64,000 bases of DNA from Candidatus Thiodiazotropha endoloripes. Its GTDB lineage: Bacteria > Pseudomonadota > Gammaproteobacteria > Chromatiales > Chromatiaceae. Where the stretch lies: positions 682,001-746,000 of the forward strand of contig LVKA01000008.1 of the NCBI GenBank assembly GCA_001709035.1, given 5' to 3'. The notes below the pieces were generated by a model that saw only the letters and a list, made by a program, of their open reading frames with translations, ran no database searches and was not told the DNA's origin. This document shows positions 41,858 through 55,315 of the stretch, one piece after another (the first letter of the stretch is position 1; each line of letters begins with the position of its first letter). The position numbers were made by a program, and so were the translations under genes.

Positions 41858-42159
41858 GCGCCCGTAGCTCATCTGGATAGAGCATCGGCCTTTAAGTGCG
41901 CACATCAATGTGCCAAATAGGAGCCTTTATGGGGAAAAAAGAACCCATAAAGTGGATCGCACTGTATCGGGGAAACCTTAACAGGTAGTGCTGATGGCAA
42001 TCCCGAGGAAACCCGCTAGGGGATCCGTAGAGACTATACGTGCGACGCCTGAGACGGTGAAGAGATAGTCCAGACCACAAACCCCGCTTGGGGGCGTCGA
42101 AAGGCGTAGTTGGTAAGCTAAGCCGAGGGTAGCAGGTTCGAATCCTGCCGGGCGTGCCA
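41858..42159 (+). tRNA. tRNA-Arg (UCU) interrupted by a group I intron
   Basis: The 5' exon is 41858-41892 (acceptor GCGCCCG, D-arm, anticodon stem TCGGC, then CTT). The 3' exon is 42118-42159 (CTAA, stem GCCGA, variable loop, T-arm with TTCGAAT, CGGGCGT, G, CCA). Joined, they give a 77-nt tRNA with loop CTTCTAA and anticodon TCT, identical to the loop of E. coli argU-type tRNA-Arg(UCU). The 225-nt interruption falls between anticodon positions 34 and 35. Alternative junctions give a Lys or Ser anticodon and would end the intron in a base other than G. Confidence 0.9.
41893..42117 (+). ncRNA. Self-splicing group I intron (IC3-like) in the tRNA-Arg anticodon loop
   Basis: A 225-nt intron ending in G. 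The P7 strands are GACTAT (42032-42037, in GTAGAGACTATACG) and ATAGTC (42065-42070, in GGTGAAGAGATAGTCCAG), the classic group I R/S elements. GGGGAAACCTTAACAGG, CTGATGGCAATCCCGAG and GAGGAAACCCG correspond in order to the joining and P4-P6 parts of the Azoarcus tRNA-Ile intron as I recall it. A P2-like hairpin pairs CTTTATGGG with CCCATAAAG (41923-41950). It encodes no endonuclease. The P1 pairing could not be assigned firmly, so boundaries rest on the tRNA reconstruction. Confidence 0.9.
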
Positions 42160-42206: not shown

Positions 42207-42283
42207 GGTGGACGTAGCTCAGTTGGTAGAGCTCCGGATTGTGATTCCGGCGGTCGTGGGTTCGAGACCCATCGTCCACCCCA
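42207..42283 (+). tRNA. tRNA-His (GUG), attachment site of the integrative element
   Basis: A 77-nt cloverleaf: G-1 at 42207 opposite discriminator C73, acceptor GTGGACG/CGTCCAC, anticodon stem CCGGA/TCCGG with loop TTGTGAT (anticodon GTG), T-loop TTCGAGA, and encoded CCA. Its last 17 bases plus one more form the left copy of the att duplication. Confidence 0.95.
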
Positions 42284-42284
42284 T
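42267..42284 (+). other. attL core (3' end of tRNA-His)
   Basis: ACCCATCGTCCACCCCAT is repeated exactly at 55298-55315 at the other end of the 13-kb element. Confidence 0.88.
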
Positions 42285-42292
42285 TCTTTTTT

Positions 42293-42330
42293 TCTCTAAC
42301 TTTTTAACAGTAAAAACAACAAGTTAGAGA
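42293..42330. terminator. Inverted repeat at the left element boundary, possible terminator
   Basis: TCTCTAACTT (42293-42302) pairs perfectly with AAGTTAGAGA (42321-42330) around an 18-nt loop. It could end the tRNA operon transcript now cut off from tRNA-Lys, or be a protein-binding site near attL. Confidence 0.45.
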
Positions 42331-42336
42331 GATTCT

Positions 42337-42389
42337 GTGCTACCATTAAACACCCCAGGTAGCACATGCTGGTAGTGCAAAAGTAGTAC
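42337..42389. promoter_or_regulatory. Left cluster of integrase arm-like repeats
   Basis: GTGCTACC (42337, inverted), GGTAGCAC (42358), GGTAGTGC (42371) and AGTAGTAC (42382) form a repeated GGTAGTRC motif. The same motif occurs near the right end upstream of the integrase gene (55213-55233). This is typical of integrase arm-type sites. Confidence 0.55.
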
Positions 42390-42421
42390 AGATGCCTGCT
42401 TTGTTTATTTAGGGAAGTGGC

Positions 42422-43000
42422 GTGACGGACTGGATAACTATAGGAATCTCTCTGCTTGCCTTGTCGGTGTCTGGTGTAACAGCCTGGCTGACCCTGTTTA
42501 AAAGGGGTCGGTTACAAATGACGCAGCCCACCACGATTTTCTTCGGTCCTGATGGTGGATTCTTTGATACAAACAACAATAAAGTGTACTTGCGGACACT
42601 GCTTTATAGTAGTTCTCGGCGGGGGCAGGTTGTTGAGAGCATGCACGTCTGTCTAGAGCGGGGTGAAACAAGGCAGAACTTCTCCATCTGGGTTCATGGT
42701 CGCTCAAAAGGTGAACTCTATAGAGGGAGCGGATTATACGTTCCACACGAGGGCGTGGTCCTGAATCATCACTTCCTAGTGCCTCCAGACGGCTCTGGTT
42801 TTACCTTTCTAGCTGGCCGCTATACGCTGAAAGTCTTCGCGAAATTAGCGAATAGCTCCAGTGCAACCTTATTGTTTACTGTCTCCCTTGAAGTTACAGA
42901 AGCACAGGCAGATAAGATGAAAGCAGAGCCATCGGGTTTGTTTTTTGATTGGGGGCCGGACCAGGGTAGCTATTATTCCCACCTTAATTTTCGGTACTGA
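42422..43000 (+). CDS. Membrane-anchored protein of unknown function
   Basis: 192 residues from GTG 42422, preceded by AGGGAAG. One N-terminal membrane helix (WITIGISLLALSVSGVTAWL) is followed by a soluble beta-rich domain (about 40-160) with HVCLERGETRQNFSIWVHG and a C-terminal aromatic FFDWGPDQGSYY. No family recognised. First gene of the element cargo. Confidence 0.7.
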   Translation: MTDWITIGISLLALSVSGVTAWLTLFKRGRLQMTQPTTIFFGPDGGFFDTNNNKVYLRTLLYSSSRRGQVVESMHVCLERGETRQNFSIWVHGRSKGELYRGSGLYVPHEGVVLNHHFLVPPDGSGFTFLAGRYTLKVFAKLANSSSATLLFTVSLEVTEAQADKMKAEPSGLFFDWGPDQGSYYSHLNFRY

Positions 43001-43114
43001 ACTGTTTGCGCTACCTGGCCTTTTGTGTTGGCCCTGCACTATCTGTAACGTGTTCTGTTAGATCGGCATTGGGATTATTGGACTAGAGTCCTGAATGATG
43101 GTGGTGTAAATAGC

Positions 43115-43513
43115 ATGTATCCCGAATTCTCAAGAGAACGATTAGACAAGACCGTTCAGTGCTTGTTGAACAGCAAGTGGGTGCCCTTCAGTAGCTCAAT
43201 GCGGACCATTCTTCCTGAAGCGGGAGGTGTGTATCGTATCTGCGACGTTTCTAACTGTGAAAACAAAATACTCTATGCAGGCTTAAGCGGGAATCTTAGG
43301 GATAGATTGTATCGAAAGCACTTTATGGGTAATCCAAAAACATCTACTTTGAAGCGGAAACTGGTGGGGATTAAATTTGATTCTCCTGCAGAGGTAAAGG
43401 AATACCTCAGGTCTTCGTGTGAAGCTCAGTTTTGCGTTATAGAGGACGAGAGGCTCAGGAGACTCGCAGAGCAGTATATAATTGCTCTGCTTCAGCCTCC
43501 ATATAATGATTAG
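43115..43513 (+). CDS. GIY-YIG nuclease-fold protein
   Basis: 132 residues. GGVYRICDVSNCENKILYAG carries the GxY...YxG elements of the GIY-YIG fold, followed by LSGNLRDRLYRKH with a basic helix; a late Glu (EQYIIALLQPPYND) fits the metal-binding end. It is a stand-alone domain, as in small repair or mobile-element nucleases. Start at ATG 43115; no clear ribosome site. Confidence 0.72.
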   Translation: MYPEFSRERLDKTVQCLLNSKWVPFSSSMRTILPEAGGVYRICDVSNCENKILYAGLSGNLRDRLYRKHFMGNPKTSTLKRKLVGIKFDSPAEVKEYLRSSCEAQFCVIEDERLRRLAEQYIIALLQPPYND

Positions 43514-43569
43514 AAGCGTTAGTGTCGTCGGACTAATTGCTAAGTTGCTCAATGATAAGGGGAGGGATA

Positions 43570-43899
43570 ATGGCTGAATTGACTTTATGTGACTTTATTT
43601 CTGATACTTTAAAAGAAATTGCTAAGGGCGTTGCGGGTGCTAATGAGGGCTTGGTTGATTACGATAATGGGGATTACGAAGTATATTCGCTGAGAGACAC
43701 TAAGGGAGATGATAAAATCTCGGGCATAAAGTTTGATATCGCAGTAAAGGCTGTTAAGAACCAACAAGACAAGGCAGGTATTGTTGTTGCTCTAGCTTCG
43801 TTGGGTGGTGGTGCCAGTACAACAAAGGAGGGTGGAAGGGAAAACGTACATAGAATCCAGTTTGAAATTGGTATTGAGCGCGACTTCACAAAGTTGTGA
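43570..43899 (+). CDS. Small trypco2-like domain protein
   Basis: About 109 residues from ATG 43570, chosen because GGGGAGGG (43559-43566) precedes it; a longer frame starts at 43537. The pattern is ELTLCDFISDTLKEIAKGVAG, a central IKFDIAVKAV, a glycine-rich ASLGGGAST, then HRIQFEIGIERDF. This resembles the trypsin-co-occurring domain (trypco2) small proteins found in bacterial conflict loci. The assignment is from pattern memory only. Confidence 0.55.
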   Translation: MAELTLCDFISDTLKEIAKGVAGANEGLVDYDNGDYEVYSLRDTKGDDKISGIKFDIAVKAVKNQQDKAGIVVALASLGGGASTTKEGGRENVHRIQFEIGIERDFTKL

Positions 43900-43980
43900 C
43901 TTATCTGTGGTTACTGCCAGAGTCGAAAGTGCACCGGTAAAAGGTTATACAGGTTAATACTTGCATCATCATTTGAGATC

Positions 43981-44670
43981 ATGTTTGGCGAAAAAGAATT
44001 AAACAATTTCTACTCAGACATATCCTGCTCTGAGGGTATGCAGATAACTACTTTTCAGAACACACTAGAGTCACTTTTTTCTGATAGTCGTACAAATCAC
44101 GACATAGAACAATATCGGCTGGGTAGGAATTCCTGGAAAAAATTAAGAGACGAAGTTGTGCCGGTATCGAGCTTCCTCAAGTTGAACTATGTTAAAGCTG
44201 ATCGAATCCGTTTTCCTCTAGATAACCACACGCCAGATTGCTGGTTAATGTCTAACAGTGTCAGTAATCGAGGTATGGAGGTTACAATTGAGCGGGGGCG
44301 CGAACATTACCACCTAGCGACAGAATTAAATAAAGAAGGTTTGGGGCGTGGTTTTATTGGTCTCCAGGATGATGATCCGCAATCTGAGTTCACAAAAAAA
44401 ATGTCTAGGGACCGTGAAATGTATACAACAGAGCAGGCACTTGAAGCCACAAAGCATGGAATCATGAGGTGTCTTTCAAGAAAGAATCAGTCTGAAAAAT
44501 ACAGGAAGGTTCACTACCTGTTAATTCAGGCACACTTAAATATCCTTCCGCGCAAAAGATGGGAAGCGATTAAAGAAGATTTAATCAGGGAGGCTCGAAT
44601 ACTTTCGTTTCAAGAAATTCATGTGATTGGAGACTCACGCAACGATGTGTGGGGTTTTCAAATCAAGTAA
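43981..44670 (+). CDS. Unknown protein, possible PD-(D/E)XK-type nuclease
   Basis: 229 residues, AT-rich codons, no signal or membrane segment. PDCWLMSNSVSNRGMEVTIERG (about 80-102) has a D-x(n)-E-x-T arrangement that recalls a restriction-endonuclease-like core, and the C-terminal half (HYLLIQAHLNILPRKRW...) is alpha/beta. No ribosome site is obvious. The nuclease idea is weak inference. Confidence 0.6.
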   Translation: MFGEKELNNFYSDISCSEGMQITTFQNTLESLFSDSRTNHDIEQYRLGRNSWKKLRDEVVPVSSFLKLNYVKADRIRFPLDNHTPDCWLMSNSVSNRGMEVTIERGREHYHLATELNKEGLGRGFIGLQDDDPQSEFTKKMSRDREMYTTEQALEATKHGIMRCLSRKNQSEKYRKVHYLLIQAHLNILPRKRWEAIKEDLIREARILSFQEIHVIGDSRNDVWGFQIK

Positions 44671-44766
44671 CTGTGTGTCGATAGCAAACACAGGAAATAT
44701 ACTCCCTGTGGCGATTCGGGGCCTGCTCCTCGTGATGTTTAAGTAAACGTATTAAAGGGTCCGAGT

Positions 44767-45576
44767 ATGGATATACAGCAAGAAATTAGGGTTTTAAATA
44801 CAGCTGTTGGGTTGATTGCAAGCTATGTTAATAATGATGTCTGTTGCTTTCCTGAAGACCGTAGTAAGCTAGTTCAAAGTGTTCTGCCGAGAGATGATGT
44901 CGCGAAGAAGTATTTCTATATTCTACTCTTAGAAGTAATTGCGGGTGTGCATAAAGAAATCATCCCAGGAAAAAAAGACGGCGATAATTTACTAGCTTTG
45001 TTGAATAGAATAGCCTCTGCGCCGAGGATAGACCCAGAGTCAACGACTTTAGGTGATTTAATAAAGTCTGTTCAAGAATTTCAAGTCTGGTTAAGTCATG
45101 AGTTTGAGCATGAAATATACTCCTCGTTAATATCAAACAACATAAAGATAAATCTAACAAGAAAAGATGCTCTTTATTTGGTTGGTAATAGGTGTAAGCA
45201 TTCTCTTCTCAGGTCTAACGCGATTCTTGATAAATTGACAAAAATATATAAGAAAGGTGGAGCTGATATGAATGTCGGCTATCAAATTCTTATACTCGAG
45301 GATATTGATAACTGGTTGTTTGATGATTTTGGTGGGTATCATTTCACAAAAATATGTGAACTGAGTTCAAAGGTCTGCTATGGAATAAAGCAGTATGTAC
45401 GTCCAGTTTATGATAGATGCCTAATGAAAGAAGACGATGCTCGCTATTCTTATATTATTCCAGAGTGTGTTTCAGAAGAAGAGTCAAAATACGAGTACTA
45501 TGAACTATTGAATCGTATAGGGTCAATGTTCCTACCGGAAATAAAAACAAGCGTACATCTGGAAGATGGATACTAA
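44767..45576 (+). CDS. All-helical protein of unknown function (possibly HEPN-like)
   Basis: 269 residues, mostly helical, AT-rich. A conserved-looking GNRCKHSLLRSNAIL (about residues 140-154) contains an R-x-x-H type motif that could relate to HEPN RNases, but spacing is not the canonical R-x4-6-H. It has no signal peptide. Located between the nuclease-like gene and the AlbA_2 gene. Confidence 0.6.
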   Translation: MDIQQEIRVLNTAVGLIASYVNNDVCCFPEDRSKLVQSVLPRDDVAKKYFYILLLEVIAGVHKEIIPGKKDGDNLLALLNRIASAPRIDPESTTLGDLIKSVQEFQVWLSHEFEHEIYSSLISNNIKINLTRKDALYLVGNRCKHSLLRSNAILDKLTKIYKKGGADMNVGYQILILEDIDNWLFDDFGGYHFTKICELSSKVCYGIKQYVRPVYDRCLMKEDDARYSYIIPECVSEEESKYEYYELLNRIGSMFLPEIKTSVHLEDGY

Positions 45577-45820
45577 ATGAACTCAAGAGTTGCTTTAATG
45601 CATGTTCGCTCTTCGTTGTAACATATACTGGCCATTTGCCGGTTGGTATCTAACACGATTAAAATGAAGGTAACAAAGTGATTGATTGTAAAGTGTTAGG
45701 TTGGGAAGTAAAGTTAAGACGATTTAGATGAATAGAGGACTGTGTATAAAGTAGCTTATGTTATTTATCTAAAGGTAACAAGCAGAAGACTAAGGTGCTA
45801 ACAAACTACGCCGGTGAAAA
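45577..45820. other. Intergenic DNA inside the element
   Basis: 244 bp, AT-rich. No gene or structure recognised; probably the promoter region for the AlbA_2 gene. Confidence 0.4.
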
Positions 45821-47011
45821 ATGACTATTGAAAAAGGAGATTTTGATTCTATTAATGAAGGTGATTTGCATGAACTTTTAGAGGCCCGCGTCCCTGAAGG
45901 ATTGAGATTAGAATACAAATTAACTGCATATGGCCGAACTGATAGAGATAAAAAAGAATTTCTTAAAGACGTTTCCGCTTTTGCTAACTCGCATGGTGGG
46001 CATTTGATAATAGGCGCGGAGGAGGATGAAGGTTCACTTATTGCTGTGCCAGGAATTAATATCGATTGTGATCAAGAAATTCTACGATATGAGCAAATGG
46101 CTAGAAATGCGATTGAGCCAATAATTCCAAGCATTAGAATGAAGCAAATAAATCTAGATAACGGAAATAGAGTTATCGTTATACGTGTTCCTAGAAGCTG
46201 GAATCCACCCCATAGAGTTACTGCGCAAGGGTTGAATAAATTCTATACACGACACTCTGCCGGAGTTCATGAGCCGGGTGTTGAAGAGCTAAGAGCAATG
46301 TTTAGTCAATCAGAATCAGCATTAGATAAGTCCATAAAATTTCGAACTGATAGAGTTAATCAAATATCAGCAGGTGAAAGGGGGCGGCGACTCGTGGGGA
46401 GCGGGCGGTTTATATTTCATATTATTCCAACAGCTGCATACTCTCGTTTAATAAATTTAGATGTCGAAGAAATGCACCGCCTTCGTCAATTCTTTCGGCC
46501 TATAGCTTCACCAATGTTCCATAATGGTTTTAATTTTCATGGATATAGAAATGAGAGAGGTGGTGAATTATGTCATGGATACACACAGATTTACCGATAC
46601 GGAGTCGTAGAAGCCACGCTTGCTAATTTAGTTAAAGAAAGAGACGGCCTTAAAATAATTGGAGCTCGAAGTATTGAAAAGCATTTTTTCGAAGTATATG
46701 AAAACTATTTGGATGGATTGCAAAGACTAAATGTTCCGTTGCCTCTAATTGCTATGATTACACTGGAAGGAGTAAGGGGGGCACGATATGTTGTTTATGA
46801 AGACGCGCTTCCTGATGAGCAGCCTCTGTTAAATGATAATGTTATGTACCTCCCAGAGTGTGTAATAGAAAGCTATGGGAATACGCAGGACTATCATAGA
46901 GCTATCAGACCTGCCTTTGATGCTATGTGGAATGCTATTGGATATGCCCGATCCGAATATTTTAACGATGACGGCATCTGGATCGGGAATCCGCACAGGC
47001 GTCCATTTTGA
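45821..47011 (+). CDS. AlbA_2/Schlafen-like DNA-binding domain protein
   Basis: 396 residues. The N-terminal AlbA_2 domain reads LRLEYKLTAY (about residues 30-39), FLKDVSAFANSHGGHLIIGAEED (about 50-72), RVIVIRVPRSWNPPHRV and KFYTRHSAGVHEP. This is the Schlafen core found in many bacterial regulators and defence proteins. The C-terminal 230 residues are unassigned. A nucleic-acid-binding or nuclease role in defence is plausible given the neighbours. Confidence 0.82.
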   Translation: MTIEKGDFDSINEGDLHELLEARVPEGLRLEYKLTAYGRTDRDKKEFLKDVSAFANSHGGHLIIGAEEDEGSLIAVPGINIDCDQEILRYEQMARNAIEPIIPSIRMKQINLDNGNRVIVIRVPRSWNPPHRVTAQGLNKFYTRHSAGVHEPGVEELRAMFSQSESALDKSIKFRTDRVNQISAGERGRRLVGSGRFIFHIIPTAAYSRLINLDVEEMHRLRQFFRPIASPMFHNGFNFHGYRNERGGELCHGYTQIYRYGVVEATLANLVKERDGLKIIGARSIEKHFFEVYENYLDGLQRLNVPLPLIAMITLEGVRGARYVVYEDALPDEQPLLNDNVMYLPECVIESYGNTQDYHRAIRPAFDAMWNAIGYARSEYFNDDGIWIGNPHRRPF

Positions 47012-47258
47012 GTGTAGCAACGGACGTTAGCGTTAAGAGCTACAGGCAATTGGCAACTTTTCGATACTTGCACTATGCCTGAGAGAGAATGTGAAAACAT
47101 CAAGGGACATTGAAGAATTTGAGCGAAAAGAATTCAAGAAGGTACGCTTTGCTTCGTTTAATAACTCAGTTTTTCGGCTCCTGATTAAAACTCCGCCAAT
47201 TAAGCGTGTGGTTTCATTCATATTCTGAATTATTACACTGATGACGTAAATAGCACAG

Positions 47259-47624
47259 TCAATCAGCAGTCATCAGCAGGTGTTCTGCCAGGCCATCCCA
47301 CAGAGCATAGTAGGCTCCAGTAGACATTCGCTTGGAATCAAAAGGAAGTGACAGATATAGAAAGGGCATGAGGTCTACGATCAGCATTGTCACGGCTTCC
47401 TCAAAGCCTGCTCCCTGCCAGTCTGGAATCTTGAGTTTAATTACCTGAGACCGGGTGTCAGTGATATAGGTGAACTCCCTACTGTTCTCCAGTATCTCAA
47501 GCAGAAGGTGTACAGCATCTTCATAGGTTACGTGTTTTGGTTCCAATATTCTGTCCTTTCGGTATCTAGGGTTCGTTGTTTGAGGGTGTCTGACAGGTCC
47601 TTCACGGGCACAATAAGACGCCAC
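47259..47624 (-). CDS. Unknown small protein downstream of the helicase-like gene
   Basis: Up to 121 residues from ATG 47624; a shorter product starting near EPKHVTYEDAVHLLLEI is possible (TTG start preceded by AAAGGACAG). It has no motif. It is the last gene of the minus-strand module, 45 bp after the helicase-like gene. Confidence 0.5.
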   Translation of the reverse strand: MASYCAREGPVRHPQTTNPRYRKDRILEPKHVTYEDAVHLLLEILENSREFTYITDTRSQVIKLKIPDWQGAGFEEAVTMLIVDLMPFLYLSLPFDSKRMSTGAYYALWDGLAEHLLMTAD

Positions 47625-47669
47625 AAGGCTTATCTATAGTTCGTGACCGTGAGGGACTCAGGCAAGGGC

Positions 47670-48983
47670 TTAAGCGGCCTGATTGATATCTGCAAGGCCT
47701 GTCGGTGATTCAGTATTCAACCAGGCAACAAGAAGGTTCCTCATGCGTTTCGAGGGGATATAAAAGGTGATTTTCTCTCCTGCCCTTACTCTTGATCTCC
47801 AGACCCACTGCACGAGTTCATTAAGAGCGTATTGCTCCTGGTTAAATGACACTCCACACTCTGAGAACAGCTTGGTGAGGGCTGGGTTTGGGAACACGTT
47901 ATACGCATAGGCTAGATATCTCTTGTGTTTGTAGAGATTCGTAGCTTTCGTGTTCACAGCAACGTGTGTGTCACGGTTAACCCGCTCCTCTGCGGTCATC
48001 TTCTTAAGTTGGTTCTTGGACACTCTCCCGCCGATATACCCAAAGGGTGAATACTGAAGTTTCGGCTTGAACTCCTGAGGGCACGTCCACATGTTCAGGT
48101 GTGGGGCTGTTGCGTCGTTACGAGTAAAGAACTTTCTCATGTAGTTTCTCAGTTTCTTCACGCGCTCTGGCTTCGCTTTGCTTAGGTCACTGACAGATAG
48201 CGCATTGCGGCGACTGCCGATAGAGTTCAAGGAGTTGTCCTGCACGATATCTAACAGGTGCCTGAAGGAGTACCCATACTCAGGTTTGTAGTCAATAAAC
48301 ATTCCATCCTCTACAGACCTCATCTCATAGTTGAGTTTGTTTAGCTTCAACCACGCAGCCATAACGGACCCCTGGAAGTTGTATGTCAGGATAAACACTT
48401 CATCAAAGGCAAGGAGACGCTGTGGGCCAGTCAGCCACACACAGACGGCGTCCTGGACTCGTACCATGTTCCCTCTGGATACCTGCTGGATAAAGGGCTC
48501 ATGCTTACCGGTATAGTCATTATTCAAGAGGACAACACGCTTTAGACCACTGATTTCGTCCTCCTCTTCACTGACAAAACCGCCAGCTACAAGGGTGTGA
48601 TAGTCGTCTGAAGTGATTCGGAAAGGTTCTACCACGTCTAGGACTTCGTCAAGGATCAATATGTAGTCCTTGCCCCGCAGTTCTCTTATGGATGTATCAT
48701 CCCACCGTTTCAGCAGGGCGTGCGTGGTGATAACAGACTTACCTTGAGAAACCGCCTCATTGAAGACTGACAGTAAGGTTTCCTTTCCTGCCTGGTCTTC
48801 TGTGTGGGGAACCACTGCGGTCCTGTCGAGTGCGTCGGCATATCTCAGGCACTCTGAGCGGGTCGGGAGGACCACTACAAAGTTCTTGTCGGGATGGTCA
48901 TTGATATAAGAGATTGCTGCCGTTGACTTGCCACGTCCCATTAGGGAATCAATAACGGTTATTTTCGGGGTACTACAGGGCAT
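47670..48983 (-). CDS. SF2-helicase-like / replication-initiation ATPase
   Basis: 437 residues. Walker A DSLMGRGKST (about 12-21) and a DExx-type ILILDEVLD (about 108-116) mark an SF2 helicase-type ATPase. SVITTHALLKRW fits motif Ia/Ib territory, and the C-terminal QYALNELVQWVWRSRVRAGE looks like motif VI with arginine fingers. Similar proteins occur in phages and small replicons as origin-melting or replication helicases. With iterons upstream, it is the best replication candidate of the element. Confidence 0.75.
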   Translation of the reverse strand: MPCSTPKITVIDSLMGRGKSTAAISYINDHPDKNFVVVLPTRSECLRYADALDRTAVVPHTEDQAGKETLLSVFNEAVSQGKSVITTHALLKRWDDTSIRELRGKDYILILDEVLDVVEPFRITSDDYHTLVAGGFVSEEEDEISGLKRVVLLNNDYTGKHEPFIQQVSRGNMVRVQDAVCVWLTGPQRLLAFDEVFILTYNFQGSVMAAWLKLNKLNYEMRSVEDGMFIDYKPEYGYSFRHLLDIVQDNSLNSIGSRRNALSVSDLSKAKPERVKKLRNYMRKFFTRNDATAPHLNMWTCPQEFKPKLQYSPFGYIGGRVSKNQLKKMTAEERVNRDTHVAVNTKATNLYKHKRYLAYAYNVFPNPALTKLFSECGVSFNQEQYALNELVQWVWRSRVRAGEKITFYIPSKRMRNLLVAWLNTESPTGLADINQAA

Positions 48984-49439
48984 AGTTATTCCTTGCCAGA
49001 GTGTTCTGGCGGTGTCCTCACAGAGTGAGTATTAGGGTGATTTAGGGGTGACCATGGGGGCGTTAACTCCCCAAATTCGAGCCGAAACCCAGTAACCACG
49101 CGGGTTTCCGGGCGGTGCTCTTAAGAAAGAGATATCTAGATAGAGAGACTTAAAGATTGACTGGAAGGGGACTGTAGATATGTGATCATTGATTATTCAA
49201 AATCAATGTAACTAGATTAATCTGGAAGGTGACCAGTAAGAGTCCAGTAGGTAGAGCTACAGGTAAACTACAAGATGTCTACTGGTTACCTTACTGTTCA
49301 ATCTGGTATCAGCTACGCTGAGTAATTGACATAAAAGATCAGGGATAAGAGATTTCAGGTTATCTTCAGTATCTAAAGACAACTTTAGATACTCTCCTGA
49401 TCTACCTTCCCTTGATTTGTCAATCAATAATGCCAGTCA
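48984..49439. other. Non-coding segment inside the minus-strand module
   Basis: 456 bp with a hairpin CCGAAACCC/GGGTTTCCGG (about 49081-49111) and an AT-rich stretch with repeated GATAGAGAG/TCTAGAT-like words. No supported gene. It may carry a promoter for the helicase-like gene or a transcript end for the HNH gene. Confidence 0.45.
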
Positions 49440-49991
49440 TCACCGAGGTGATACCGTATAGAACCCAAGCCGGTTTTCTGCGGACTTTCTCCGGCAGACC
49501 GCCTCAAAGAAGTCTTCAGTGGTCCCAAGGTGATTATGTATCCCATCAGAAATAATACTGGCGATCCACTTGCCGCTGGATTTACTGCGGTTAACCCCGG
49601 TTACCCCAGAATTGTTGTCATTTCGGACTCGCTTTAGTTGCTTCTTGGTGTCTCGATCAACAAGCCTTAAGTTCACCAGTCGATTATCTAAACGATTCCC
49701 GTTGATATGCTGAATGTCATACTGCGGCCACTCGCCGTGGTGTAACAGCCAAGCTACCCGGTGGGCAGGGTATGCAACTCCATAAACCTTTACGATACGG
49801 TATGGGCTAGATGTTCTATCTGACCTAGGGATAATCGTTCCGGCCTTGTCTCCCTTTTTGGTTTTAGTACCACGGTCCTGCTTCCACGTAATACTCCCTG
49901 TTTCGGGGTTGTAATTGAGTAGTCTAAGTGCCTCTACTGCTGCCAGTTTATCAATCATAGGCTTCATCTGTTGGTTGGTATTGTTCTGCAT
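49440..49991 (-). CDS. HNH endonuclease with AP2-type DNA-binding domain
   Basis: 183 residues. An N-terminal domain (YNPETGSITWKQDRG) leads into HRVAWLLHHGEWPQYDIQHINGN then RLDNRLVNLRLVD, which are the H-N-H catalytic elements (about 80-115). A C-terminal AP2-like segment (SGVTGVNRSKSSGKWIASI) follows. It is a typical phage or homing-type endonuclease and a candidate for helping element spread. Intact. Confidence 0.88.
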   Translation of the reverse strand: MQNNTNQQMKPMIDKLAAVEALRLLNYNPETGSITWKQDRGTKTKKGDKAGTIIPRSDRTSSPYRIVKVYGVAYPAHRVAWLLHHGEWPQYDIQHINGNRLDNRLVNLRLVDRDTKKQLKRVRNDNNSGVTGVNRSKSSGKWIASIISDGIHNHLGTTEDFFEAVCRRKSAENRLGFYTVSPR

Positions 49992-50048
49992 GGTTGATCC
50001 TTCGGGAATCTTCCCGAATCGTTAAGGGGTTACTGGATTAATAGTGTG

Positions 50049-50561
50049 TCAGTCGGAAGGTAACCGACCAGGAGCCTTCCACAGCTCACGGCTTGGGGTT
50101 GGGTCTTCTGCTGGTCGTGTAGTGTCTTCAGGAGCCTGTGAGGAGTCCTCAGGGCTTACAGGATATGTGTAATTGCCATTGATCAGTCCATAGATGATAT
50201 TACCTATTGAATAGTCAACATCTGCATAGGGATTAACACGCTCTGCCGTTTCTCTAAGACTCTTCTGAAGCTCTGTAATGCGCTGATATGTGTCAGGGAA
50301 TAGGGTGACCTCAAGACGGCGTTTTGTTGCCTCTCTGGTGCCTGTAGACTGCCTGCTGTGGCTGTACAGTGGGGGTCCTTCAGAAAGCTTACAGTCACCT
50401 TTGATCAGGGTGTCTATGACATCATCAGTGGTTACTGGTTTGCCTTCACGGGTCGATAGGAACTCTGCAAGGAATTCGATCTCTTTCACTATCTCAGTGC
50501 TGATAATTAGTGTAATTCTCATGGTGTGTAGAAAGGTCCCGACAGGGGTAGAAACAATCAC
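50049..50561 (-). CDS. Unknown element protein, DNA-binding-like
   Basis: 170 residues from 50561, or about 157 from the in-frame ATG at 50522 (MRITLIISTEIVKEIEFLAE). The central RREATKRRLEVTLFPDTYQRI-like region resembles a ribbon-helix-helix strand-helix pattern (RLEVTLFPDTYQRITELQ). The C-terminal tail is rich in Pro, Glu and Ser. Possible copy-control or transcription regulator. Confidence 0.55.
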   Translation of the reverse strand: MIVSTPVGTFLHTMRITLIISTEIVKEIEFLAEFLSTREGKPVTTDDVIDTLIKGDCKLSEGPPLYSHSRQSTGTREATKRRLEVTLFPDTYQRITELQKSLRETAERVNPYADVDYSIGNIIYGLINGNYTYPVSPEDSSQAPEDTTRPAEDPTPSRELWKAPGRLPSD

Positions 50562-50612
50562 GAATATCGTAAGTATTAGTGGAAGGGTCCTGCCGGGACC
50601 TGGAGACCTTGT

Positions 50613-50870
50613 TTAGTCGGTATGTTTAGATGTGTCTGCCCAGTCTGGCAGAGGGAGCACGCCTTCTATGATACGGGCAACAACCCAAGCACGCGATGGA
50701 GTACGTCCAGAGGACTTTAGGACAGAACTCTGAAGCTCCTTAATATAATCTACGACAGTCGCAGGCAGACGGTCGATGTCCGCACGTACCCAACGCTCAG
50801 GGTCAACAGTTGTTTGAATGATTGTTGGGCCGTTTCCGGCTCCGGTGACTTTGTTGTCAGTAAACAGCAT
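50613..50870 (-). CDS. Small paralogous protein A
   Basis: 85 residues. The C-terminal half shares a pattern with the neighbouring 81-residue protein: LQ-x2-VL-x3-GRTPS, then I-x-G-x2-PLP-x-WADTS. No membrane or catalytic motif. The two genes are 14 bp apart and arose by tandem duplication. Function unknown; a small DNA- or protein-binding role is possible. Confidence 0.65.
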   Translation of the reverse strand: MLFTDNKVTGAGNGPTIIQTTVDPERWVRADIDRLPATVVDYIKELQSSVLKSSGRTPSRAWVVARIIEGVLPLPDWADTSKHTD

Positions 50871-50884
50871 TAGTTATCCTCTGC

Positions 50885-51130
50885 TTAAACAGCGTAACGG
50901 CTGGTATCAGCCCAAGGGGGGAGCGGATGGGTGCCGTTGAGGATATCTTCCAGGATTTCGTCAAGAGATGGTGTACGGCCAGTGTTCTGAAGGACCTGGG
51001 TCTGTAATTGACGAAAGTAGACTTTGTTTCGATATGGCAGGTTCCTGATGCCTGCTGATTCCAGCTTCATGTCGAGGTTCGTTGCCCCGACAGTATGCCC
51101 GTTTTCATCGGTTGTATATGTAGTTGCCAT
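50885..51130 (-). CDS. Small paralogous protein B
   Basis: 81 residues, paralogue of the protein at 50613-50870: LQTQVLQNTGRTPSLDEILE then GTHPLPPWADTSRY. Start at 51130 with a purine-rich AAGGAACAAAC upstream. Co-transcribed with its copy. Confidence 0.65.
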   Translation of the reverse strand: MATTYTTDENGHTVGATNLDMKLESAGIRNLPYRNKVYFRQLQTQVLQNTGRTPSLDEILEDILNGTHPLPPWADTSRYAV

Positions 51131-51159
51131 TGCTTTGTTTGTTCCTTAGTTCAGGTTGT

Positions 51160-51534
51160 TTAGAAGTTAGAGATAGCAGCCTTAGCTTCTACCTCATGGG
51201 TGAAGGCAGCGTCCGAACCGTACCGGGGGTCTTTCATATCACTCAGCATCTGGTCATATGATTCATAAGCCTTGACGCTCCCTTGAGCGGGCCGGGATGT
51301 AGCCTTGTTGAGTGCTGCGGTTCTCTGCGAGGTTTCTAGAGGGATATTAGTGCCTGGGAGGGTTCCTACAGTGGAACCATCTGGCATCACCATGCACGAA
51401 AAACCGGGGGTATGTGCGGGCTGCTCAGGCCAATCCATCTCTGTGCCATCCTTGCCAAGAGATTTATCAAGGTCTTTCTGCATAGCCTGTAGCTCTTCTG
51501 GAGTGATGGATCTACTGGTACTTCTTGCTGACAT
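51160..51534 (-). CDS. Unknown small protein of the element module
   Basis: 124 residues, hydrophilic, with RSITPEELQAMQKDLDKSLG near the start and SYDQMLSDMKDPRYGSDAAF near the end. No recognised family. Gap of 29 bp to the paralogue pair and 40 bp to the upstream gene, so one operon. Confidence 0.55.
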   Translation of the reverse strand: MSARSTSRSITPEELQAMQKDLDKSLGKDGTEMDWPEQPAHTPGFSCMVMPDGSTVGTLPGTNIPLETSQRTAALNKATSRPAQGSVKAYESYDQMLSDMKDPRYGSDAAFTHEVEAKAAISNF

Positions 51535-51574
51535 AATTAGTGTTTATTCCTGTGTTGATGATTAGAGTGGGGGA

Positions 51575-51841
51575 TTACTTCCCGCCCCACCTGTGGGTTT
51601 CTCTAGGTTTCTCGCGTTTAACGATGCGCCCTAGAATTGCGCTGTTGACCAAAGCACTCAGTGATAGGCGCTCTCCGGTCTGTGCTTCGTGAGAGGCCCT
51701 GAGAGCCTTAAGTTTTTCTTCAGACTCCGTGAGAAGCTGAACGGATAGTCTGTAGACTGGCCCGTCTGTGTTCCTCGGGAGTCCTACAAGGTTCGGCTGG
51801 CGTCCTGCTGGGGAACTGCTGGATTGGTTTGATGTGTTCAC
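51575..51841 (-). CDS. Small ribbon-helix-helix-like protein
   Basis: 88 residues. VYRLSVQLLTESEEKLKAL then LSLSALVNSAILGRI suggest a strand-helix-helix dimerisation unit. First larger gene after the iteron array on the minus strand. It could bind the iterons or repress the module. Confidence 0.55.
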   Translation of the reverse strand: MNTSNQSSSSPAGRQPNLVGLPRNTDGPVYRLSVQLLTESEEKLKALRASHEAQTGERLSLSALVNSAILGRIVKREKPRETHRWGGK

Positions 51842-51950
51842 ATTAAATATTCTCCTGGTTGGTTAGGCGGTGTTGAGGCGTGTAGAGGTATGTCGGTGCA
51901 TCTGGCCAACAAACTGGTCTCCAAAGAGACACGCGCGAAAGTTTTGTGTC

Positions 51951-52317
51951 CCTGTAAGGGGCGGTTTCAAACTTCAGGACTATCATTCCCGAAAACGGTT
52001 CGGTTGCTTCTGTAATGGTGGGTTTCAAAGATATGAAGATTGTTTCCTAAGCGGTTCTCTTTCCCTGTAAGGCGTACTTTCAAACCTGGAGAGGGTGTTC
52101 CATAAAACAGTTTTGGTCTATCTATAAGCACGACTTTCAAAACAACGGTTCTTCTCTCTATAAGGAGCACTTTCAAACCTAGAGCCAAAATCGGGTGACA
52201 GAAGAGTCCCTTAGGACGCCAAAGGTACTAGGGAGTCCGCGAGGGATCAGAGAGAGTTCGGGAAGGTATCAGCCTGTGTTTTGGGGGGTCTTCTTTCTAT
52301 AAGGAGGTGTTTCAAAC
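51951..52317. repeat. Six 21-bp iterons, possible replication origin or operator array
   Basis: Consensus CTRTAAGG-N5-TTTCAAAC. Copies at 51952-51972, 52010-52030, 52065-52085, 52122-52142, 52158-52178 and 52297-52317, all in the same orientation; copies 2 and 4 carry one to three changes. Spacing is about 59, 56, 57, 36 and 139 bp. They lie in a 650-bp non-coding stretch upstream of the minus-strand module. Direct orientation and fixed length fit iterons of a plasmid-type origin; a set of binding sites for the small DNA-binding-like protein downstream is the alternative. Confidence 0.75.
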
Positions 52318-52392
52318 TAATGCAATAGAATCAATGGCTTAGAAGGGGTTGCTGCCAACCAAAAAACAACGACTTACGGCATGCGGTGAGAG

Positions 52393-52431
52393 CCCCCAGA
52401 CCCAACAAGCTGGGTGCTGAGTCTGGAGGGG
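52393..52431. other. Stem-loop beside the iterons
   Basis: CCCCCAGAC (52393-52401) pairs with GTCTGGAGGGG (52421-52431), with an inner CCCA/TGGG. It could be an origin hairpin, or the terminator of the small gene at 52473-52607 (read on minus); no long T-run follows. Confidence 0.55.
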
Positions 52432-52472
52432 TTCTGTAGGTAGTCTATGAGGGTCTGTAGGGGCCTTTGGTA

Positions 52473-52607
52473 TTAATGCTTACTGATTACAATACTCAAC
52501 TTCCCTAGCTGGATATCGACACTGTCAGCGTTCCTCATCGCATGGAAACCTGAGATGCCCTTGAATGACCCTACGAATACTTCATGTCCTGGAAGTTTGA
52601 ATAGCAT
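52473..52607 (-). CDS. 44-residue small protein
   Basis: The frame starts at ATG 52607 with AGGAG six bases before it and encodes MLFKLPGHEVFVGSFKGISG and 24 more residues ending VISKH. The strong ribosome site and balanced composition support it. No family recognised. It lies just upstream of the hairpin and iterons on the same strand as the replication-like module. Confidence 0.6.
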   Translation of the reverse strand: MLFKLPGHEVFVGSFKGISGFHAMRNADSVDIQLGKLSIVISKH

Positions 52608-53093
52608 TGTATGCTCCTGGTTGTGATTGAATGCAGGGGCAAAGGTAGATCATAAAGTAGTACATGTCAACGTAAACTATTGAATATAAGCGTAATAGTT
52701 GCACTATAGTAATCCACCCGATAGCGTAAGGATCACCCCACAGGCAGTACCAATGGATACACAATCCATTGACCTTAGGTTTTAAATCAAACACTTAACG
52801 GAATTAGTGACATGAATGGTGACAGAAAAGTAAGTATGTGCCCCCTCCCCAGGTGGTCTGGCTGGTTCTTTTAGGAAGCGGGAAGGGTTCTGATAGAGGT
52901 CTGGAGGGTGGCCCCCTATGGGGGGGGAAACTGGTCTGTACTATTTAATTTATACCCTGCCGGAAATTTTTGGTAAAACTTTCGGCTGATAGTCATATGA
53001 ATCCTACCGATTACATAAGTGCTATCTATCTGATATCTTAATGTTAATTTACTTTTTCGAATACATGGATCAGGCGCATAGGTAGGAATAGGG
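52608..53093. other. Non-coding segment between divergent element genes
   Basis: 486 bp including a C/G-rich stretch (CCCCCTCCCC near 52841, a G9 run at 52919) and AT-rich DNA before 53094. No supported gene; a 70-codon minus frame (52582-52794) overlaps the small gene and lacks a ribosome site. Confidence 0.45.
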
Positions 53094-53867
53094 ATGAAAC
53101 GAGTTGAGCGTGTGACGCGCGTTACATTTATAAATGTGCTGAGTTATATCGGATGGCCAGCAGCCTTTGTCTATTTTATTTCTATGGTCGTTGTTCCCTG
53201 GGTCGAGGGGAACGGTGATTGGCAATATGTTCAAAATGTTTGGGATAGGTGGCAAGCTTTAAATGTTGGAATGCTAGCTCTTGTGTCAAGTTTGGTAGCC
53301 TTAAATGTATCGTTTTTGACATCGGAGAGGGTGCGTGGTCAGAATTTCCGTGCTGCTAAGGCTTTTCTTCCAGAGGCTCTTAGTGAGTTAAGCACTTATT
53401 TCAAAACTTGCGCGACAGTATTAAACGAAGCTTGGGATTTAGAAGGCACCGGGAAATTACAAATTAAATCACGAAGACTACCCGATGGCTATAAAGAAAT
53501 CTTTGCACAATGTATTAAATACTCAGAACCAGATATTGAAAACTACTTATCAAAAATACTTGTGAAGCTACAAATCCATGATGCACGTATGGGGGACTTT
53601 ATACCAAATTATAATGATGATCGTTATATAGGTCCGCATGCTTACAACTTAATAACCTATTACTATCGACTCGCGGAGCTTCAAATAATGATTGATAATT
53701 TATTTGGTTTTGCGAGAGGTCGAGAAGAGTTTACGCCACTTGAACTTAGTTGGGACCGGTTTGATGATGCGTATGCTCAATTGGATGTATTTCTTGAAGA
53801 AAAAACCATAGAGAATGACAGTTTGACTGAGTTTACAAAGCGTGCTCTTGAGAGAGGGCAGGATTAG
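53094..53867 (+). CDS. Membrane protein of unknown function in the element
   Basis: 257 residues with two N-terminal membrane helices (about 12-35 and 53-72) and a helical soluble domain of about 180 residues. No motif recognised. Start at ATG 53094 after GGAATAGGGATG. Its 3' end overlaps the integrase 3' end by 35 bp in convergent orientation. It could be a defence effector, but nothing in the sequence proves it. Confidence 0.65.
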   Translation: MKRVERVTRVTFINVLSYIGWPAAFVYFISMVVVPWVEGNGDWQYVQNVWDRWQALNVGMLALVSSLVALNVSFLTSERVRGQNFRAAKAFLPEALSELSTYFKTCATVLNEAWDLEGTGKLQIKSRRLPDGYKEIFAQCIKYSEPDIENYLSKILVKLQIHDARMGDFIPNYNDDRYIGPHAYNLITYYYRLAELQIMIDNLFGFARGREEFTPLELSWDRFDDAYAQLDVFLEEKTIENDSLTEFTKRALERGQD

Positions 53868-55197
53868 TCGTTGTCGTCAGGTTGTACTGAACCTTCTCAA
53901 TCGCCTCTCTCATTGCCTCAATCGTCTGGCCTTTGCTGTAGGTATTGAATGCCAGTGCATGGGACTTGTGGCCGACAATACGTTCAATCAGTATCCCGCT
54001 AACGTCTGCCTGTTCCATCTTTGTTATGAAGGTATGACGTAGGCCGTGGAAAACGTAATCTTTTCCGAACCCAAGAGACTTCTTCACTCTGCCGAATACC
54101 TTGCCGATGTTCCAGCTGGGGCGCATATCGGGTCCTCCGGGCACAAGGCCCTTGATCAGTGGGCCTGTATCCCTGGAATCAATCAATGATCCGATAAGTG
54201 GTTTAATGGCGCTGTGGATCGGTACTTCTCTCACGGCAGATGCAGTCTTACCTTCGCGGACCTTGAAGGCACCATCAGTACAATCCTCTACCTGTAATGA
54301 ACAAATCTCATCGCGCCTCATGCCTGTGTGAATGGCTATCAGGGTTATTGAGTGGCATCTGCTGGCATTCTCACGGGATACCTGCTGCTTTTCTTCTTTA
54401 GATATCCTTGAGAACTCAGCGAGGACCGTCTGAAGCTGTGTGTCTGACCAAGCCTTACGGTCGGTATCTTCCGGCTTAACCTCTGCTCTACGTCCTCTGA
54501 TTGCTTCTAGTTTGATGCTACCGAAGGGGTTTCGATTGACAATACGCTTGGACTGTACCCAGTCAAAGAATAGGTTGAGAGTATTCAATCTTCTTTGCTT
54601 GGTCTTATGTACCACTCCGCTATTGATGATATGTCTATCAACGAAATTCCATGCCTCATCCTCACTCAGGCAGCTATGTATAGGCACATCCCGGCCTAAC
54701 TCATCTGCCCAGATGTCAACCATCTTCATCCGGTCCCGTACGGCACCATTAGTTAATCCATCAGCACACCAACTTTCATACTCAGCTAATAATGATCTAA
54801 GGGAAGGGGAGTCCTTCTTTGCCTTAGCGATCATAAGGGCCTGCTTGATGTTCTCTGCTTCTGTCTGTTCATGCTTGTTGACGTACATCTCAAGGGCATC
54901 CAGCAGACCAGCCTCAGCATTACCTTCTGGTGTATCCTCCGCGCTTCCTTTCAGCTTGTGGAGCTGTTTAGCCATGCGGATCACTAATGGAACGTCCCGC
55001 CCTTCGTCTTGAGCTTCCTCCACTTCCCTATGGAACTCAGTGTGCATCATGTCCCTGAGCCTGCGGGCTTCGTTGATGTCACGGGTTTTGAGAGATTTCG
55101 TGAAGAATGTCCCGTAGACCTCCTGCATAAATACAGGGTATTTGCGCTTGTAATAGAATGTATGGCCCCTCTTGACCATATATTTCATATCTGACAT
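53833..55197 (-). CDS. int: Tyrosine recombinase/integrase of the element
   Basis: About 454 residues from ATG 55197, preferred over 55272 because GGGGCGGTG precedes it. The N-terminal segment (MVKRGHTFYYKRKYP) is DUF6538-like; a core-binding SAM-like domain spans about 130-230. The catalytic domain shows HTGMRRDEICSLQ (Arg), FHGLRHTF (His-x2-Arg), GHKSHALAFNTYS (His and Tyr). It should catalyse integration and excision at the tRNA-His att site. Arm-like repeats lie 16-36 bp upstream of its start. Confidence 0.93.
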   Translation of the reverse strand: MSDMKYMVKRGHTFYYKRKYPVFMQEVYGTFFTKSLKTRDINEARRLRDMMHTEFHREVEEAQDEGRDVPLVIRMAKQLHKLKGSAEDTPEGNAEAGLLDALEMYVNKHEQTEAENIKQALMIAKAKKDSPSLRSLLAEYESWCADGLTNGAVRDRMKMVDIWADELGRDVPIHSCLSEDEAWNFVDRHIINSGVVHKTKQRRLNTLNLFFDWVQSKRIVNRNPFGSIKLEAIRGRRAEVKPEDTDRKAWSDTQLQTVLAEFSRISKEEKQQVSRENASRCHSITLIAIHTGMRRDEICSLQVEDCTDGAFKVREGKTASAVREVPIHSAIKPLIGSLIDSRDTGPLIKGLVPGGPDMRPSWNIGKVFGRVKKSLGFGKDYVFHGLRHTFITKMEQADVSGILIERIVGHKSHALAFNTYSKGQTIEAMREAIEKVQYNLTTTTNPALSQEHAL

Positions 55198-55212
55198 GAT
55201 CACCGCCCCTGA

Positions 55213-55233
55213 AGTAGTACTGCTAGGTAGTAC
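55213..55233. promoter_or_regulatory. Right pair of integrase arm-like repeats
   Basis: AGTAGTAC (55213-55220) and GGTAGTAC (55226-55233), 13 bp apart, match the left cluster at 42337-42389. They sit upstream of int and could also repress it. Confidence 0.55.
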
Positions 55234-55297
55234 AGGGTAGACGAGTAAGTTGCTGAATTCAATAGGAATCATGGACTTGCGAAAAGCGGCCTGAGCA

Positions 55298-55315
55298 ACC
55301 CATCGTCCACCCCAT
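55298..55315 (+). other. attR core
   Basis: ACCCATCGTCCACCCCAT, an exact repeat of the tRNA-His 3' end at 42267-42284. It lies 10 bp before tRNA-Lys. Confidence 0.88.

Follow-up and report, generated by a model that had tools for sequence, protein, structure and literature searches.

A very likely self-removing group I intron in the single tRNA-Arg(UCU) gene detected in Candidatus Thiodiazotropha endoloripes, from a family with endonuclease-bearing members

The only tRNA-Arg(UCU) gene that we found in the genome of Candidatus Thiodiazotropha endoloripes, a relative of clam symbionts, is interrupted in its anticodon loop by a 225-nt insert, and we consider it very likely that this insert is a working group I intron that removes itself from the transcript; with less certainty, we take it to stem from a mobile family with endonuclease-bearing members. 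The gene lies on the forward strand at positions 41858-42159 of the 64,000-nt stretch of DNA that was analysed (the window) and is split between U34 and C35. Joining its exons of 35 and 42 nt yields a 77-nt tRNA-Arg with the loop CTTCTAA and the junction CTT/CTAA, exactly as the initial annotation had read it, and leaves the insert at 41893-42117; because the insert begins with T and ends with G, it cannot be slid if CTTCTAA is to remain, and its register is therefore unique. Comparison with tRNA genes of relatives, which the same annotation had proposed, uncovered an uninterrupted and near-identical tRNA in other genera, where the site is empty at six loci that differ from the joined exons by one to three D-loop bases. 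An otherwise whole tRNA and empty sites among relatives thus identify the insert as a tRNA intron of the anticodon loop. The parts of the gene and its intron are as follows, each with the evidence on which it rests.

41858-41892, forward strand: 5' exon of tRNA-Arg(UCU), last base U34 (sequence, empty sites, rebuilt exons)
41893-42117, forward strand: group I intron of 225 nt without ORF, omega-G at 42117 (sequence, Rfam match, core pairing)
41900-41913, forward strand: hairpin between splice site and guide (P1 loop), differing among relatives (read from the sequence, no counts)
41918-41923, forward strand: guide UAGGAG (family-wide guide test)
41925-41952, forward strand: P2 hairpin, 41925-41933 with 41944-41952 (pairing count)
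41957-41962, forward strand: P3 5' strand, partner 42040-42045 (pairing count)
41967-42006, forward strand: P4 (41967-41971 with 42002-42006), P5 inside (pairing count)
42007-42026, forward strand: P6 with a short loop (pairing count, intron comparison)
42032-42037, forward strand: P7 5' strand GACTAT (sequence, pairing count)
42040-42045, forward strand: P3 3' strand (pairing count)
42046-42059, forward strand: P8 hairpin (pairing count)
42065-42070, forward strand: P7 3' strand ATAGTC (sequence, pairing count)
42082-42107, forward strand: P9 hairpins, 42082-42093 and 42094-42107, the latter with a GAAA loop (read from the sequence, no counts)
42118-42159, forward strand: 3' exon of tRNA-Arg(UCU), first base C35, CCA included (sequence, empty sites, rebuilt exons)

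The assignment to group I, put forward in the initial annotation, is borne out by an Rfam match and a covarying core in addition to the empty sites. The proposed search with Rfam group I models was run permissively on 331 bases against 4227 families and matched RF00028 (Intron_gpI) to 41902-42093 on the forward strand with 35.4 bits (E 1.2e-7), below the gathering score of 50 bits, which is a curated cut-off and not a defining trait of group I introns. To count pairing, we aligned nine cores, namely six from the genus (the window's among them) and one from genome G056, all in Arg(UCU) at 34/35, one from genome G089 in Arg(UCU) at 36/37, and one from genome G064 in Ile(CAU). Across these, the 31 core pairs, P7 included, are formed in 99.3% of cells as against 32-45% for slid partners, and P2, examined in 17 sequences, is paired in 98.7% with both sides changed in seven of its nine pairs and slid versions at 20-62%, figures biased in favour of the structures by their having been drawn on the same sequences. 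Both-side changes occur in 11 of the 31 core pairs and fall in P3, P4, P6, P7 and P8; the P5 pairs never vary among the nine cores, so covariation tests nothing there. The P7 strands, GACTAT at 42032 and ATAGTC at 42065, lie precisely where they had first been placed and their pairs count among the conserved core. Together, the RF00028 match and the 31-pair count establish the core helices, P7 and the P3/P7 pseudoknot of a group I intron. The splice sites are equally legible: in the guide UAGGAG, UAG pairs with CUA of the 3' exon (P10) and GAG with CUU of the 5' exon (P1), in which U 41892, the U34 of the tRNA, faces guide G 41921 as a U.G pair, and G 42117 is the 3' end of the intron. Outside its three CUU/GAG pairs, P1 contains a C-C mismatch.

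Since the RF00028 score lies below the gathering score, a whole-window Rfam search at gathering scores shows no intron; that search reported only the Pro, His and Lys tRNAs, as did ARAGORN, which missed tRNA-Arg(UCU). None of 11 related loci tried reached the RF00028 gathering score. According to the part of its description available to us, tRNAscan-SE 2.0 was not designed for group I intron detection (PMC8450103). An essential tRNA gene is therefore invisible to both annotation routes tried, ARAGORN and Rfam at its cut-off.

An intact tRNA-Arg(UCU) elsewhere had been named in advance as grounds for regarding this locus as an inert pseudogene, and none turned up. The genome comprises 4.87 Mb in 25 contigs, and searching all of it with the interrupted gene returned four matches, consisting of the gene itself and pieces of the Arg tRNAs with anticodons ACG and CCG. 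A genome search with RF00005 gave 46 matches, at which ARAGORN called 45 distinct tRNAs with the Arg anticodons ACG, CCG and CCU; between the whole-genome gene search and this census, which scored 150 of its 180 first-look candidates, no second tRNA-Arg(UCU) was found. The initial annotation had the UCU anticodon reading AGA/AGG-type codons, which holds for AGA, whereas AGG has its own tRNA (CCU) and the codon at stake is therefore AGA. In 35 mechanically chosen window ORFs, AGA accounts for 102 of 13447 codons and for 102 of 828 arginine codons, and three genes that are probably housekeeping or native contain it 5, 1 and 1 times.

Given covarying helices, a guide that fits each exon and a genome in which our searches showed no second tRNA-Arg(UCU), splicing of the window intron very probably works. 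The gene would yield a pre-tRNA-Arg(UCU) from which the 225-nt ribozyme would excise itself: a guanosine bound at P7 would attack after U34, at the U.G pair of P1, and the freed U34 would attack after omega-G while P10 holds the 3' exon, giving a mature tRNA that reads AGA. A dedicated protein would presumably not be required. If the intron were instead an inert remnant that no longer splices, the gene would be a pseudogene and AGA would have to be read otherwise; the RF00028 score below the cut-off is in keeping with this, but the intact exons, the absence of any other UCU tRNA from our searches, and a core and guide conserved among relatives with compensatory changes make such decay highly improbable. 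We also considered that splicing might be regulatory, with guanosine, Mg2+ or temperature limiting tRNA-Arg(UCU) and hence the translation of AGA. Although a sole copy and a minor arginine codon would suit such a role, there are other genera in the family that manage without the intron, which implies that it is not needed, and we think regulation improbable.

Within the genus, the intron is present in 19 of 21 other Candidatus Thiodiazotropha genomes; in the remaining two, the drafts G009 and G013 (530 and 290 contigs), our searches recovered neither the intron nor a tRNA-Arg(UCU) without one. We extracted twenty introns of the genus: four measure 225 nt, the window's included, eight 266-272 nt and eight 294-298 nt. 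We built a core model from the nine sequences, including the window's, and found matches to it in 34 of 210 family genomes and in 50 of 369 genomes from the class. Reading of the rebuilt exons put an intron in Arg(UCU) in 31 of the 210, one of which shows just the 5' exon, and in 18 of the 369. Exons were rebuilt for 79 groups, 7 of which gave no result and some of which left the host ambiguous (Thr/His, Thr/Lys, Thr/Gln). The insertion point was 34/35 for Arg(UCU), once 36/37; 34/35 for Leu(UAA) and Ser(UGA); 36/37 for Arg(CCU) and for what is probably Thr(UGU); and both 33/34 and 36/37 for Ile(CAU). Several loci stand apart as observations in their own right: genome G089 has introns in Arg(UCU) at 36/37, Ile(CAU) at 33/34 and Leu(UAA) at 34/35 (L147, L190, L191), genome G113 has them in Arg(CCU), Arg(UCU) and Ile(CAU) tRNAs (L134, L202, L205), and apparent group I introns lie in Ser(UGA) (L172), Lys-or-Thr (L170, L171) and probable Thr(UGU) tRNAs (L155, L183).

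A splice-junction pattern recovered at least 118 stretches in named genome contigs, with both exons of an Arg(UCU) insertion at 34/35 in at least 112 contigs (exon finding failed at 6 of the 118 loci). Among the matches listed, 97 of 112 are titled Gammaproteobacteria and two Desulfobulbia, one of these being the isolate Desulfogranum marinum DSM 2058; single metagenome-assembled genomes (MAGs) in the same set are titled Campylobacterota, Myxococcota, Bacillota and Alphaproteobacteria, and MAG contigs may be misplaced. In a quick tree of 174 cores (3 further cores could not be cut out), 127 bacterial Arg(UCU) rows require 4 changes, 17 Leu rows 6 and 9 phage rows 6; labels cluster uncleanly, the tree leaves 83 of its 171 inner branches open, and its long branches come together. 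With several changes needed and so many open branches, we claim neither a single origin of the Arg(UCU) introns nor a direction of transfer.

The guide follows its host across this family. Of 145 rows of Arg(UCU) introns at 34/35, not de-duplicated, the P10 half forms at least two of three Watson-Crick pairs with CUA in 122, one pair in 15 and none in 3, with 5 untestable, and it fits the Leu exon AAA in 3; in 18 Leu(UAA) rows at 34/35, likewise not de-duplicated, it fits AAA in 14 and CUA in 1, with 4 untestable. The guide therefore tracks the host anticodon, so that the sequence can reveal moves between tRNAs. The tRNA-Leu(UAA) introns share with the window intron their insertion at 34/35 after CUU and the CUU/GAG pairing; by contrast, the P10 half of their guide fits AAA and not CUA. 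The introns of Azoarcus tRNA-Ile(CAU) and Agrobacterium tRNA-Arg(CCU) are small and ORF-less and are inserted at 36/37, unlike the window intron at 34/35, and relatives likewise have introns at 36/37 in Arg(CCU) and Ile(CAU). The window intron adds a member to a known kind: Flood et al. 2016, citing MacGregor et al. 2013a, mention putative group I introns in the tRNA-Arg-TCT of Beggiatoa and Thiomargarita (PMC4853749, consulted in part). We found no other report of them in the open-access literature searched, as far as its accessible text goes. Thiomargarita nelsonii (PMC4853749, same portion) resembles our case in host tRNA and is also a sulfur-oxidising gammaproteobacterium; structure, class and insertion point of its intron are not given there. 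An Arg-UCU host in a gammaproteobacterium had been thought unusual; the consulted portion of PMC4853749 and 112 of 118 contigs, among the matches listed, say otherwise.

No ORF was found when one was looked for inside the window intron, which is thus not itself an endonuclease-bearing mobile intron; in relatives, the position of its P6 holds 44-75 nt of extra sequence or an endonuclease ORF. This corrects an earlier description: the intron family includes members with homing-endonuclease ORFs. Among 168 distinct introns from all hosts, 45 resemble a relative's endonuclease and 123 show no such similarity. The ORF is intact in 27 of the 45 (introns of 640-697 nt) and broken in 18 by the filter used, although L274, counted as broken, has a one-piece match of 136 residues and may be intact. 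In genome G031 of the same family, the ORF, which is cut by the contig end, matches PF11645 (PDDEXK_5, 3.7e-33) and PDB 2ost (2.8e-4), which we take to be I-Ssp6803I. By their PDDEXK_5 domain the ORFs of relatives belong to the PD-(D/E)XK homing endonucleases, with activity predicted. FD and QVK are invariant in the 27 ORFs, and dN/dS has a median of 0.11 and a maximum of 0.25 in the 33 of 351 pairs with usable dS, which share sequences and are non-independent; such low values argue that the intact ORFs are kept by selection. Within a single genus, genome G112 has a 394-nt form with remnants and genome G113 a 658-nt form that contains the ORF, and the G056 intron, from the same family as the window's, also retains remnants. 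None of the genus introns tested showed endonuclease similarity. A known counterpart is the Synechocystis tRNA-fMet intron with I-Ssp6803I, a 150-aa PD-(D/E)XK endonuclease (PMC1995217, seen in part); it differs from the window intron, which lies in tRNA-Arg(UCU) and has no ORF. In the accessible text of the open-access literature searched, we found no report of a PD-(D/E)XK endonuclease in Arg(UCU) introns.

Plasmids were screened as possible carriers, and tblastn with a relative's endonuclease matched none of their 72,556 records; 50,697 phage records gave 15 endonuclease matches, all below 60% identity. The two nearest come from Synechococcus phage Sf-FR1 (57.8%) and from Acinetobacter phage Herod (40.4%), where the endonuclease gene starts 68 nt and 22 nt, respectively, after an uninterrupted tRNA-Arg(UCU). 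An endonuclease scan of IMG/VR, on whose classing the viral status of its contigs depends, added two loci: in L326 the gene follows an uninterrupted tRNA-Arg(UCU), and in L325 the tRNA-Arg(UCU) contains an ORF-less group I intron (107.9 bits) with a free-standing endonuclease gene downstream. In all, free-standing PD-(D/E)XK genes directly follow tRNA-Arg(UCU) at L325, L326, L327 and L328, the tRNA of L325 being the intron-bearing one, and three more-distant homologues that we viewed lie near other tRNAs. The junction pattern retrieved 20 IMG/VR contigs (L332-L351), among them the L325 contig again and several near-copies; 19 have a core match and 17 a full intron at CTT/CTAA. Some of these intron-bearing tRNA-Arg(UCU) genes sit in large tRNA arrays, and in L342 the core matches three times, once within a Leu(UAA) tRNA. 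Provided that the viral contigs are genuine, phage tRNA genes too contain group I introns, a location for which we found no report in the accessible text of the open-access literature searched; a 2014 review states, in the part consulted, that all phage introns observed to date were in protein-coding genes (PMC3984707).

These patterns bear on how the ORF-less form came about. Less certain than splicing itself is the history that we favour, in which a mobile family carried a PD-(D/E)XK homing endonuclease in P6, which in bacterial relatives probably helped to spread the intron, and the genus now inherits an ORF-less form. It is conceivable, though we lean against it, that the intron reached the genus already ORF-less and was inherited vertically, with endonucleases entering related introns separately. 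This would accord with the lack of endonuclease similarity in the genus introns tested and in 123 of the 168 distinct introns, and with the viral contig whose endonuclease gene lies outside its ORF-less intron. Against it, ORF and remnants occur within the same family, and P6 of the 294-298-nt genus introns is similar to the sequence flanking the ORF in kin (L067 and L202 agree by eye at 21 of 24 nt), a likeness that a P6 which never held an ORF would show as well. More speculatively, phages and bacteria may share one mobile system on tRNA-Arg(UCU), in which a phage tRNA with or without intron has a free-standing endonuclease beside it, the bacterial endonuclease in P6 spread the intron and decayed, and the resident intron shields the sole AGA tRNA gene; we hold this as a tentative and rather doubtful proposal. 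Its last element taken by itself, that the intron protects its host by splitting the cutting site of phage-borne endonucleases of the same family, seems unlikely: homologous free-standing genes do come directly after tRNA-Arg(UCU) in Sf-FR1, Herod and L326, and in L325 after its intron-bearing form, yet these enzymes have no known target site and the distant homologues lie near other tRNAs. Shielding, if true, would account for the persistence of ORF-less copies like that of the window. Whichever history applies, the family is wide enough for studying gain and loss of a tRNA intron and its endonuclease, and the endonuclease-bearing relatives and viral copies are the more interesting lead.

Next to the gene, the window contains a 13-kb integrated element at 42267-55315. 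It is bracketed by an 18-bp perfect repeat of the tRNA-His 3' end (42267-42284 and 55298-55315) and has a phage-integrase-family gene (53833-55272; PF00589, 5.7e-15) near its right end. Further genes of the element are listed below.

43115-43513: GIY-YIG protein gene
45821-47011: Schlafen/AlbA_2 protein gene
49440-49991: HNH_3 endonuclease gene

In several relatives tRNA-His and tRNA-Lys adjoin, and in two (L058 and L063) RtT RNA repeats (RF00391) come after tRNA-Lys.
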